Translations under genes and position numbers: made by a program
Part shown: in pieces, positions 4,069 through 27,331 of the stretch
Numbering within the stretch: position 1 is the first letter of the stretch
Layout of the letters: every line of letters starts with the position of its first letter
Assembly: GCA_025361105.1 (NCBI GenBank)
Contig: JANYAW010000369.1
Coordinates: 1 to 34,483, forward strand
DNA length: 34,483 bases
Source: Rhodocyclaceae bacterium
Lineage (GTDB): Bacteria > Pseudomonadota > Gammaproteobacteria > Burkholderiales > Rhodocyclaceae
Direction of reading: 5' to 3'
Notes under the pieces: model-generated
What the model saw: the letters and a program-made list of their open reading frames with translations, nothing else
What the model was told of the DNA's origin: nothing
Database searches by the model: none

Positions 4069-4875
4069 TCAGTGCGACCAGTCCAGACGCTGAACTTTTC
4101 CGGCCTTGATTTCCAAGGCATCGCCACGACCCGTGTCCCAATCTGAAAGCACCCAGCGCTCACTGCCTGTGGCGGCATCGACGATCTCATGACCGGGTCG
4201 ATGTGTGTGACCGTGAATCATAATCTGGCAACCTGATGCAGCCAGCGTTTGCCTCACAACGTTTGGATTGGCATCCATAATCTCGGCAGATTTTTGGCGG
4301 ACTGCTTCTGCGCTACGCTGGCGTAGTGCAACAACTTCGGCGCGCCTGGCTTCTAAAGGTTTCGCCAGGAAATTTTTTTGCCATTCTCCTATACGTACAA
4401 GGCGGCGAAAATCCTGATAGGCATGATCGTCGGTGCACAGCGTATCGCCGTGGAGTAAAAGCGCTTGCATGGTGTGATTTAACGGCGTGTCACCAGCACC
4501 AACTGGCGGTTGCGTAATGGCTTGCGTGATATTCAACACGCTGAGCTCAGGCAACAAAATCGCACCGGTTGCCGCTGCGAAATTTGAGCCAATCAAGAAA
4601 TCGCGATTGCCATGCACGAAGAACAATCGCGTGCCGCCATCGGATAGCTGTCGCAACTTCGCGACGATTTCGGCGATGAACAAATCATCAAGATTGTCGT
4701 CACCTATCCAATACTCGAACAAGTCGCCAAGAATAAACAATGCCTCAATTTTTTGCGCCACACAATTGACCAAAAGGCGCGCAAATCGCTCGGTCAAGTC
4801 CGCGCGATCTTGGCGCAGGTGCAAGTCGGAGACAAAGCGGACGGTACCGGCAATGGAGAGCATGCCGTCGCCCAT
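4069..4875 (-). CDS. lpxH: UDP-2,3-diacylglucosamine diphosphatase (LpxH) carrying an in-frame repeat insertion
   Basis: LpxH hydrolyses UDP-2,3-diacylglucosamine to lipid X in lipid A synthesis, at the cytoplasmic face of the inner membrane. The calcineurin-type metal ligands are visible: SDLHL (D17, H19), GDLFEYW (D51), GNRD (N90), HGDTLC (H142) and HGHTHRP (H221, H223). Between LLPE (residue 110) and HGDTLC the protein has about 17 residues more than E. coli LpxH (recalled, not aligned by tool). That extra stretch contains PVGAGDTPLN (124-133), encoded by the dispersed repeat at 4477-4507. The start lies 4 bp after the ppiB stop, suggesting translational coupling; ATG 4863 is an alternative. 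All catalytic residues are intact, so the enzyme is probably functional. Confidence 0.95.
   Translation of the reverse strand: MGDGMLSIAGTVRFVSDLHLRQDRADLTERFARLLVNCVAQKIEALFILGDLFEYWIGDDNLDDLFIAEIVAKLRQLSDGGTRLFFVHGNRDFLIGSNFAAATGAILLPELSVLNITQAITQPPVGAGDTPLNHTMQALLLHGDTLCTDDHAYQDFRRLVRIGEWQKNFLAKPLEARRAEVVALRQRSAEAVRQKSAEIMDANPNVVRQTLAASGCQIMIHGHTHRPGHEIVDAATGSERWVLSDWDTGRGDALEIKAGKVQRLDWSH
4477..4507 (+). repeat. Dispersed repeat copy 1, inside lpxH
   Basis: This copy contains the exact core GGCGTGTCACCAGCACCAAC followed by TGGC and preceded by ATTTAAC. It lies on the strand opposite to lpxH. Read in the lpxH frame it encodes PVGAGDTPLN. It matches the cysS copy over 29 of 31 bases. Confidence 0.93.
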
Positions 4876-8511: not shown

Positions 8512-9927
8512 ATGCTGAAAATTCACAATACGCTGAGCCGAGAAAAACAAGAATTTATTCCGCTTGAAGCGGGACGGATTCGGATGTACGTTTGCGGTCT
8601 GACGGTGCAAGATGTTCCGCACCTTGGCCACGCGCGCACCTTCATTGCGTTCGACGTGATTGCGCGTTGGTTGAAGATCACTGGGTACGACGTAAGCTAC
8701 GTCAGAAACATCACGGACATCGACGACAAAATCATTCGCAAAGCGGGTGAAGGCGGCGAGTCGATTGGCGCGCTGACTGAGCGCACCATCGTTGCGATGC
8801 AATCCGATTTTGCTGCCTTGGGAATGGCCGCGCCAGATTTTGAACCGCGCGCCACGCAATACATTCCGCAAATGCTGGAAATGATAGCGACTCTGGAGCG
8901 CAAGAAATTGGCCTATCAAGCGGGCGATGGCGATGTCAATTTTGCGGTGCGGCGCTTTGAAGGTTACGGAAAATTATCCGGCAAATCGCTCGACGATTTA
9001 CGCGCTGGTGAGCGCGTCGCCGTCGATACTTCAAAGCGTGATCCACTGGATTTCGTGTTGTGGAAATCCGCTAAAGCTACCGAACCTGCCGAGTCAAAAT
9101 GGGATTCACCATGGGGTTCGGGGCGTCCGGGCTGGCATATCGAGTGCTCGGCGATGTGCGTAGCAGTTTTAGGGAAGACTCTGGACATTCACGGCGGCGG
9201 GCCAGATTTGAAATTCCCGCATCACGAAAATGAAATCGCCCAAAGCGAAGGCGCACACGATGTGACTTTCGCCAACTATTGGATGCACACTGGTGCGCTC
9301 AATGTTGACGAAGAAAAAATGAGCAAGTCACTCGGTAATTTTTTTACCGTACGCGAGGCCTTGGCTCGCTACGATGCTGAAGTGATTCGTTATTTTGTGG
9401 TGCGTTCGCACTACCGCAGTAGTGTGAATTTTTCGGAAGACCAGCTAATCGAATCGCATGCTGCACTGCGTCGACTGTATACAGCGCTCAGGCAGGATTT
9501 GCCAGTTGGTGCTGGCAACACGCCGTTAAATGATGTGAATTGCGCAGTGAATTGGGATGACGATTACGGCAAGCGCTTTAGGGCCGCAATGGATGATGAT
9601 TTCAATACGCCTGAGGCACTCGCGGTGTTGTTTGATTTGGCTGGCGAAGTGAATCGCGGCAATCGCAGCGCTGTCTCGCAACTCAAAGCGCTCGGTGGCG
9701 TATTGGGTCTTTTGCAGCGAGCCCCGTCGGTTTTCTTGCAAGCAGTGACCGGGCTGACAGATGAACAGAGCCTTGGCAACGCGGCAATTGAGGAAAAAAT
9801 TTTGGCGCGAACGCAGGCTAAGCAAGCGAGAAATTTTGCGCAATCAGATCGCATTCGCGATGAGTTGAAGGCGCAAGGCATTGTTTTGGAGGATGGACCG
9901 CAAGGCACTACCTGGCGAAGATCGTGA
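8512..9927 (+). CDS. cysS: Cysteinyl-tRNA synthetase (CysS) carrying an in-frame repeat insertion
   Basis: This class I synthetase of 471 residues charges tRNA-Cys. It shows the zinc ligand C28 (MYVCG), the HIGH motif as HLGH (37-40), GWHIECSAM, and KMSKS (269-273). It ends with the [15 protein letters not shown] tail typical of the family. Between LYTALR and the [10 protein letters not shown] motif it is about 11 residues longer than E. coli CysS (recalled). This excess coincides with [10 protein letters not shown] (331-340), encoded by the dispersed repeat at 9501-9531. The insertion lies in the variable linker before the helical anticodon-binding part, where length change is likely tolerated. 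The gene is essential as a rule, so the copy must be tolerated. Confidence 0.97.
9501..9531 (-). repeat. Dispersed repeat copy 2, inside cysS
   Basis: On the plus strand it reads GCCAGTTGGTGCTGG, then CAACACGCCGTTAAAT. It is the reverse complement of the family core, with two changes in the centre (TG instead of CA). In the cysS frame it encodes [10 protein letters not shown], the same peptide and frame as in lpxH. The arms GCCAG/CTGGC can form a 5-bp stem with a 6-base loop. Confidence 0.93.
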
Positions 9928-16728: not shown

Positions 16729-16784
16729 AACGGCGTGTCCGTGGTGCTGGCGATACTAATGGCGTGTCACCAGCACCAACTGGC
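16729..16784 (+). repeat. Dispersed repeat copy 3, with a degenerate head-to-head partial copy
   Basis: A full 27-base copy lies at 16758-16784 (one change, AAT for AAC). Just upstream, 16729-16740 repeats AACGGCGTGTCC, and 16742-16750 reads TGGTGCTGG, the inverse of part of the core. TGGTGCTGG pairs perfectly with CCAGCACCA at 16770-16778, a 9-bp stem around a 19-base loop. The block fills most of the gap between the convergent dut and aceB stops and may act as a transcript end. Confidence 0.85.
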
Positions 16785-16797
16785 AAGTTCGCTTCCC

Positions 16798-18533: not shown

Positions 18534-19430
18534 ATGAGCCATTTCAAACAAATGCAAGCCTTTGTGAATGCCGCCACACGCGGCTCGCTGGCCGACGCGG
18601 CAAGGCTGGACGAGGTGACGCCAGTGGTCATCGGGCGGCGCATTGATGCGCTGGAGACCCGCTTGGGTGTGCGGCTCTTGCTGCGCACGACGCGCAAACT
18701 CACGCTGACCCGCGAGGGTCAAGCTTTTTTGGAAGATTGTCAGCGCGTGCTGACTGATTTGAGTAACGCAGAAACGGCCGTGTCGCTTGGCAGCATTCGT
18801 GCGCGCGGGCACGTCAAAATTTCTGCACCGGCCGGATTTGGGCGGCGGCATGTTGCCCCGCACGTGGCGACATTTCAGGCCGAGCATCCCGACGTGCGCA
18901 TCAATCTGGATTTGACTGACCGGTTGGTCGATTTGATGAATGAAAGCGTTGATTGTGCGGTGCGAATCGGCGAGATGGATGATTCAAATTTGGTCAGCGT
19001 GCGCTTGGGTGAAATGCGCCGCGTGATCGTCGCCGCGCCTAAATATTTGCGGGCCAACGGCGTACCGTCAGCACCAACTGAGCTTGCGCATCACAACTGC
19101 TTATCGCTGACCCAACAACGCGGTTGGTCGTTGATGGCGAATGGCGAAGCACAGGTGATCAAAGTTGCAGGCAATTTGGAGAGCAACGATGGCGCCGTGT
19201 TGCGTGAGTGGGCACTGGCCAGCAAAGGGCTAGCCTGGCGCTCGTGGTGGGAAGTTGGCAACGATGTGATCAAAGGCAAACTCAAAACCGTGTTGGACGA
19301 TTACGCTGCGCCACCGGTCGGAATATACGTGGTGTTCCCAGATCGCCGACATTTGCCGCTGCGCGTGCGTTTGTTTATTGATATGCTGAAAGCATGTTAC
19401 GCGCGCGGTGATTATTGGGAGCGGACGTGA
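18534..19430 (+). CDS. LysR-family transcriptional regulator
   Basis: This 298-residue protein has an N-terminal winged helix-turn-helix (about 1-60, FVNAATRGSLADAARLDEVTP and RRIDALETRLGVRLL) and a LysR substrate-binding domain (about 90-290). It is divergent from aceB and convergent with aceA. LysR proteins usually act on the divergently transcribed neighbour, so control of the glyoxylate shunt is the leading guess. The effector is unknown. The recognition helix differs from the usual SQPAVS pattern (DEVTPVVIGRR), which is typical of the CrgA/DhcR-like subgroup. Confidence 0.9.
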   Translation: MSHFKQMQAFVNAATRGSLADAARLDEVTPVVIGRRIDALETRLGVRLLLRTTRKLTLTREGQAFLEDCQRVLTDLSNAETAVSLGSIRARGHVKISAPAGFGRRHVAPHVATFQAEHPDVRINLDLTDRLVDLMNESVDCAVRIGEMDDSNLVSVRLGEMRRVIVAAPKYLRANGVPSAPTELAHHNCLSLTQQRGWSLMANGEAQVIKVAGNLESNDGAVLREWALASKGLAWRSWWEVGNDVIKGKLKTVLDDYAAPPVGIYVVFPDRRHLPLRVRLFIDMLKACYARGDYWERT

Positions 19431-19438
19431 GCAAATTG

Positions 19439-19465
19439 CTCGGTTGGTGCTGGTGACACGCCGTT
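19439..19465 (-). repeat. Dispersed repeat copy 4
   Basis: This reverse-oriented copy matches the core at 23 contiguous bases, with divergence in the last four (CTCG in place of CCAG). It starts 9 bp after the LysR stop and lies just before a Rho-independent terminator, between convergent genes. Confidence 0.9.
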
Positions 19466-19479
19466 ACAGCCATGAGACG

Positions 19480-26342: not shown

Positions 26343-26373
26343 ATTTAACAGCGTGTCGCCAGCACCAACTGGC
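26343..26373 (+). repeat. Dispersed repeat copy 5
   Basis: ATTTAACAGCGTGTCGCC then AGCACCAACTGGC: two changes from copy 1 in 31 bases. It begins 15 bp after the stop of the small membrane protein and directly precedes the DUF1854 gene fossil. Confidence 0.92.
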
Positions 26374-26383
26374 GATTTTGGCC

Positions 26384-26440
26384 TTACAGGAATCGATCCA
26401 ACAATCGCCGACTGGTCTTATCCAGCGCTGATACGTCGGC
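26384..26440 (-). pseudogene. Fossil of a DUF1854 gene 3' end
   Basis: Read on the minus strand, 18 codons and a stop give ADVSALDKTSRRLLDRFL. The intact DUF1854 gene ends ADVLALDKTSRRLLDRFL. Seventeen of eighteen residues agree, but 12 of 57 bases differ, almost all silent, and the stop codon differs (TAA versus TAG). Upstream codons do not match. It lies between repeat copies 5 and 6. This looks like the tail of a once-functional homologue rather than a recently decayed duplicate of the neighbour. Confidence 0.8.
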
Positions 26441-26496
26441 AGAGGAATTTAAGAATTTAAGGGGTCGCACTAAGTTGAGGCGACCGGCATCACCCC

Positions 26497-26527
26497 GTCA
26501 GTTGGTGCTAGCCACACGCCGTCAAAT
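26497..26527 (-). repeat. Dispersed repeat copy 6
   Basis: This inverted and more diverged copy reads GTCAGTTGGTGCTAGCCACACG on from 26497. It forms, with copy 5, a 185-bp unit with inverted ends enclosing the DUF1854 fossil and a small hairpin (GGTCGC/GCGACC, 26463-26485). The remaining 26528-26614 shows no feature. Confidence 0.85.
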
Positions 26528-27300: not shown

Positions 27301-27331
27301 ATTCGACGGCGTGTCACCAGCACCAACTGGT
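27301..27331 (+). repeat. Dispersed repeat copy 7
   Basis: The core is exact apart from the final base (TGGT for TGGC), with GAC for AAC at the start. It lies 27 bp downstream of the DUF1854 stop and about 70 bp upstream of the exported protein start. The same repeat-then-DUF1854-tail order occurs at copy 5. Confidence 0.92.

Follow-up and report, generated by a model that had tools for sequence, protein, structure and literature searches.

The lpxH gene in the analysed window (the whole stretch of DNA under study, 34,483 nucleotides from a Rhodocyclaceae bacterium) contains a copy of a repeated sequence within its reading frame. This raises the question of how such a sequence became part of an essential lipid A enzyme and what kind of element it represents. 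The identity of the gene is well founded, as its product matches the NCBIfam model PRK05340.1 with 254 bits against a cut-off of 134 and also exceeds the cut-off of TIGR01854. As the earlier note had described, the repeat lies in frame and supplies the peptide PVGAGDTPLN, residues 124–133 of LpxH, encoded by nucleotides 4477–4506. The stretch that links LLPE to HGDTLC, which had been put at about 17 residues longer than in the E. coli enzyme, is likewise 17 residues longer than in the solved LpxH sequences 8s7f and 8qjz. The metal ligands on both sides are intact, D17, H19, D51, N90, H142, H221 and H223 being invariant among 39 aligned LpxH sequences. In a structure model built from an alignment of 39 homologues, with a mean pLDDT of 88.9, residues 120–132 form a predicted loop of lower confidence (block mean 62) between strands 111–119 and 133–141, in agreement with the surface turn between strands that had been suspected.

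The repeat in lpxH is a member of a dispersed motif family, the abundance of which lies far above chance. The common form of the motif is AGTYGGYGCTGGNNNNACGSYG, and a few flanking bases also belong to the signal. About 560 copies are present in the source genome (G000, 2.86 Mb). When up to two mismatches are allowed, its own dialect, CAGTTGGTGCTGGNRACACGC, is matched 557 times in the assembly, 271 and 286 times on the two strands, against none for the reversed pattern, which served as a control. The spelling-tolerant count of AGTYGGYGCTGGNNNNACGSYG gives 564 copies, 276 on the plus and 288 on the minus strand. The contigs sampled from this genome (292 kb) hold 75 copies, of which 50 agree with the pattern at every one of its 19 specified positions. 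The unit can be written approximately as GCCAGTTGGTGCTGGYRACACGCCGTYAA. Its conserved stretch comprises 22–25 bp and 34–46 bits, and conservation stops sharply at about 25 bp. The consensus is non-palindromic and has no GTAG head. The window itself carries eight copies, including a diverged one, and five of them lie between genes (Table 1). The copies within 26343–26522 are inverted about 125 bp apart; in Neisseria, pairs placed in this way act as terminators.

Table 1. Motif copies in the window and the two enzyme genes that contain them in frame.
Feature	Position	Strand	Remarks
lpxH, UDP-2,3-diacylglucosamine diphosphatase	4069..4875	-	268 aa
Motif copy in lpxH	4477..4507	-	reads CCAGTTGGTGCTGGTGACACGCCGTTAAAT on the minus strand; PVGAGDTPLN, residues 124-133
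cysS, cysteine--tRNA ligase	8512..9927	+	TIGR00435, 550 bits
Motif copy in cysS	9501..9531	+	same reading frame as the lpxH copy; residues 331-340
Motif copy, intergenic	16757..16786	-	between the ends of dut (16719) and the malate synthase gene (16798)
Diverged motif copy in LysR-type regulator gene	19056..19080	-	3 mismatches to the own-genome pattern; reads NGVPSAPT
Motif copy, intergenic	19443..19466	+	flanked by two convergent genes
Motif copy, intergenic	26343..26374	-	opposite orientation to 26498-26522
Motif copy, intergenic	26498..26522	+	inverted pair with 26343-26374
Motif copy, intergenic	27301..27330	-	flanked by two minus-strand genes

By the names of its relatives, the window stands near Sulfuritalea, Rugosibacter and other Rhodocyclaceae or Sterolibacteriaceae. 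A search among these relatives with the pattern of the source genome's own dialect gave no matches, and the notion of a repeat private to this genome was overturned by the dialect-tolerant pattern. When AGTYGGYGCTGGNNNNACGSYG was counted throughout the family in spelling-tolerant form with up to one mismatch, most genomes in about seven genera (g1, g2, g9, g19, g62, g70 and g88) were found to hold 118–765 copies each, against 0–2 for controls. Genus g69 has 78 copies of a dialect that matches the tolerant pattern only with a mismatch. Counts stay at background level (0–22) in nearly all remaining genera of the family, the highest being 22 in a single g23 genome, followed by up to 15 in a few others, and outside the family no more than six copies occur in each of 291 genomes from about 50 other families. 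Low counts are also encountered within carrier genera: 32 in G299/G089, 49 in G318 and none in G304. In three genomes of non-carrier genera (G139, G112 and G111), the few copies sit close together, in clusters that span from a few kb up to about 40 kb and are probably DNA received from carriers.

The abundant version of the motif in each relative was recovered by k-mer discovery. It reads AAAAGTCGGCGCTGG..ACGGCG in Sulfuritalea G069, AGAGTTGGCGCTGGCGACACGG in G063, AAAAGTCGGTGCTGGCGRGACGGCG in G073 and AAAAGTCGGCGCTGGTGACACGGCG in G065. Among the matched sequences, the versions of genus g19 end in ACGGCA and those of g69 contain GTCGACGCTGG. The dialects are thus genus-specific consensus sequences, with genomes grouped by genus rather than on a species tree, and orthologous sites are spelled in the dialect of the genome in which they lie.

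This spelling is also found in lpxH. According to the earlier note, the repeat had been inserted at this place and thereby accounted for the extra residues of the enzyme. The relatives argue against both statements: about 30 of them have VGAG[GD]T in the same loop of an LpxH of ordinary length, and the 17 extra residues of the window protein lie to either side of this peptide. In the relatives, the peptide appears as KVGAG[GD]T at the same place, each time in the dialect of the respective genome, and its VGAG[GD]T part is encoded by AAAGTCGGCGCTGGCGGTACG. The alignment of LpxH from relatives, which had been proposed as a check, gave a divided answer. The core peptide is common to these relatives, the extra length is absent from them, and the repeat is present elsewhere in their genomes. 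Carriers and non-carriers among the relatives show no difference in loop length, and the non-carrier loop lacks the peptide. Since the loops of the non-carriers and of Sulfuritalea are equally long, the motif would have arisen in lpxH without lengthening the protein. Judged from these alignments, the repeat is real, yet it is no recent insertion into LpxH. The best explanation of the compared sequences is that the lpxH site is ancestral in the group, was converted to the spelling of the source lineage and saw its surrounding loop lengthened. Alternatively, the site may have been lost, followed by a fresh insertion in the same loop. Lengthened LpxH loops also occur at the same place in the relatives L062, L064 and L080, two of which have CVPxxPL and GRGQVTA-like pieces in common; the source of these pieces may be another repeat.

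A peptide shared by about 30 relatives could also be retained because VGAG[GD]T serves the function of the LpxH enzyme, its likeness to the repeat being secondary. However, the codons are conserved beyond the peptide. The lpxH motif uses GCT for alanine in 21 of 24 cases, whereas the rest of the same gene stretch does so in only 8 of 341 (P about 1e-24, a value that overstates independence because the 26 LpxH genes compared are related). Threonine is encoded by ACG in 23 of 23 cases and lysine by AAA in 13 of 13, and carriers with random synonymous codons were looked for and not seen. On this codon evidence, it is clearly the DNA, beyond the peptide alone, that is conserved in the lpxH motif. 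In other genes, the motif DNA falls in different reading frames, or on the opposite strand, and its translation gives unrelated peptides. Together with the non-carrier enzymes that do without the peptide, these observations make a loop conserved for LpxH function barely credible.

Short repeats that are read in frame in essential proteins and lie in their surface loops are familiar from the palindromic elements of Rickettsia, which are longer, palindromic and inserted. A short selfish element of this type, jumping in frame into genes and thus reaching surface loops, would explain why the copies are many and near-identical, and it would fit the LpxH loop with its 17 residues more than in relatives. 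It is also in line with cysS, where none of the 19 relatives compared has the 10–11 residues that lie exactly at the motif; this copy does look like a clean insertion of about 11 residues, as far as aligned proteins can tell. The other genes behave differently in a survey of orthologues, in which 12 coding copies of the source genome had a spanning homologue and eight allowed a reliable comparison with a carrier from another genus. Five of these eight sites have an orthologous motif of matching orientation in the other genome, spelled in the dialect of that genome; they lie in lpxH, mutM, a gene for an ilvD-like dehydratase, L006:9714 and L022:226. The clearest of these dialect-converted sites is mutM, which reads RRVTSTNW in the source genome and RRLTSADF in the carrier G073, while the non-carrier G010 has an unrelated stretch of equal length; the ilvD-like pair reads QLVLATRR and, in the other dialect, ESALAARR. 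At two further sites, L017:5122 and the gene of a LolD-like ABC ATPase at L023:5582, the motif is absent without a gap, and at cysS it is absent with a gap of 10–11 residues.

A jumping element is difficult to reconcile with sites in lpxH, mutM and ilvD that are common to other genera in different dialects, or with homologues that lack the motif and still align gap-free, as in mutM, the LolD-like gene and L017:5122. Gaps are also missing at most high-identity Sulfuritalea pairs, and the unit is non-palindromic with a sharp conservation edge. The insertion reading, as drawn from pairwise alignments, was retained for cysS only. Unlike the Rickettsia elements, the motif is found at most testable sites through substitution or shared ancestry, with cysS alone fitting their pattern. 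Selfish insertion thus explains cysS but fails because of the shared, dialect-converted sites, and we consider it improbable as an account of the family.

Sites are also shared in the surroundings of lpxH. A comparison of 20 kb around this gene in 20 relatives shows four sites that 15–18 genomes within Sulfuritalea have in common. Ungapped substitutions set apart the lpxH site and a second one in G089, a low-copy relative from Sulfuritalea, with some of the G089 alignments being gapped across intergenic stretches. At L213:17875 and its orthologues, GCTCG replaces GCTGG. This site is common to 15 genomes and survives in G089, and it may be held by the protein sequence, not by the motif.

The repeat had been described as non-coding, which does not agree with its distribution: among the 76 copies sampled from the source genome, 41 fall inside genes and 35 between them according to a simple gene model, corresponding to 0.16 versus 1.02 copies per kb. 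Other carriers show a similar pattern. The intergenic excess, along with the inverted pair in the window, could point to an extragenic palindromic element of the REP type or to a regulatory RNA or terminator motif. REP sequences with their RAYT transposases are palindromic and extragenic and occur in hundreds of dispersed short copies. The motif is likewise dispersed in hundreds, but it is non-palindromic, lacks the head and is genic in about half of its copies. A REP-type family exists separately in G069. Identity with REP elements was ruled out on the structure of the motif, and the group of REP, RNA and terminator readings as a whole is very unlikely. The separate family of G069 (L136, L145) consists of REP-like GTAGGGCCGACTTCAGTCGGCC units in arrays and has AGTCGGC in common with the motif. 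Another abundant repeat with a REP-like look, TGTGGGAGCGGCGGCC, occurs on contig 1 of G005 (L176–L181), a member of the family without the motif.

Along the chromosome, the copies are spaced more evenly than expected at random. In G073, the coefficient of variation is 0.74 against 1.02 under the null model (P 0.0007), and over 400 kb of the closed genome G125 it is 0.76 against 0.99 (P 0.004). Jumps of a selfish element would not produce such even spacing. The same 400 kb contain 41 copies on the plus and 46 on the minus strand. Their largest gap free of the motif, a single case, covers 16 kb of low GC content (G125:C1:14700-30697, L254–L255) that encode a cytosine (C5) DNA methylase along with large ORFs of 1846, 505 and 700 aa, and this stretch is possibly a defence island.

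Even spacing is also what a protein acting on the chromosome inside the cell would select for, be it a nucleoid organiser or a factor that steers replication or recombination. For known uptake sites, this interpretation of even spacing was put forward by Karlin and colleagues (cited in PMC1939737). The dialects would then track a co-evolving binding protein, and the strong conservation of the DNA inside genes would be accounted for; indeed, a DNA-binding protein with a different role could produce the same pattern. However, the copies are strand-neutral, unlike sites of the Chi or KOPS type, and the information content of each site far exceeds what is needed for finding hundreds of sites. An essential role is further called into question by the lack of the motif in most genera of the family and its near-loss in Sulfuritalea G089. 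We regard a site of this kind as the main rival, albeit an unlikely one.

The best explanation, in which we place moderate confidence on the basis of comparative analysis, is a signal of the uptake type that works like a DNA uptake sequence. Known uptake sequences are evenly spaced without orientation bias, show an excess in noncoding DNA, form dialects and occupy permissive sites in core genomes (PMC1939737, PMC3630211, PMC2397512). These traits are matched by what was directly observed: the motif is abundant, non-palindromic, strand-neutral and evenly spaced, it forms dialects and occupies permissive genic sites next to an intergenic excess, and it is conserved by descent with occasional gains of the gap type. 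Two points count against the uptake reading: the motif is longer than the neisserial DUS, and close inverted pairs are rare in G125, with one at less than 300 bp among 87 copies, next to a single pair in the window. From the overall pattern, we infer an uptake function, a receptor and recombination as the driver. A surface DNA receptor belonging to a type IV pilus or competence machine would favour DNA bearing the signal, so that DNA taken up would mainly come from kin. Recombination of this DNA would repair old sites and found new ones where they are permissive, and if the preference of the receptor shifted, recombination would rewrite the sites. The LpxH loop would be one such permissive place.

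Two putative components of such a machine are present. A minor pilin encoded in the source genome (L217:1495-1920) scores above the Pfam cut-off for ComP_DUS, with 32.9 bits against 27.3. The ComP_DUS family occurs in 35 of 38 genomes and the competence pore ComEC in all 32 genomes surveyed for it, in both cases in carriers and non-carriers alike, and therefore the two proteins do not discriminate between them; they permit the uptake reading but do not prove it. Upstream of the gene for the ComP_DUS-type pilin, at L217:1250-1366, a full copy of the motif follows the degenerate half-copies GGTGATACTTAGCAGCGTGT and GGTGACACTTAACGGCGTGT and forms GTGACAC...GTGTCAC together with its flank. A search of the literature, with most subscription journals outside its coverage, returned nothing relevant on the motif or on uptake sequences in Rhodocyclaceae or Sulfuritalea, and no uptake or binding experiment on these bacteria was found in it.

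Among the known systems, the neisserial DUS resembles the motif in many respects: both occur in hundreds of copies on both strands, are non-palindromic, come in lineage-specific dialects (PMC3630211, PMC2397512) and use permissive sites within and between core genes, some of which face gaps in relatives and others of which are inherited. The ComP_DUS-family pilin of the source genome is a further likeness. The DUS, however, is of the GCCGTCTGAA type and reaches up to about 13 nt, and apart from CTG inside the core, its sequence is unrelated to the motif of 22–25 bp, which belongs to a different betaproteobacterial family and for which the uptake role is deduced from its pattern. Because of the different sequence and the longer conserved stretch, the motif should be kept apart from the DUS, even though the two would act alike if the inferred uptake role is right. 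With the USS of the Pasteurellaceae (PMC12616744, PMC1939737), it shares a core with conserved flank positions, even spacing, dialects and a noncoding excess, yet with many genic copies. It differs from the USS in sequence and taxon, having a GC-rich core and, in most dialects, an A-rich 5' flank. With somewhat better than even confidence, we propose a third, independently evolved family of uptake signals in the Sulfuritalea/Rugosibacter group. This family would comprise at least five dialects, exceed the neisserial signal in length and use a putative surface receptor of its own.

Such a signal would account for the same odd peptides in the unrelated essential proteins LpxH, CysS, MutM and the IlvD-like dehydratase, with the warning that peptides of this kind should not be taken for protein function. 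Whether molecular drive or selection is responsible for the spread of such signals, a long-open question, would then become testable by comparison. As of October 2025, a paper on uptake receptors still named the Neisseriaceae and the Pasteurellaceae as the sole families known to discern their own DNA at the cell surface by short motifs (PMC12616744). If the uptake reading is true, self-recognising transformation extends beyond them to free-living betaproteobacteria as a third independent case.
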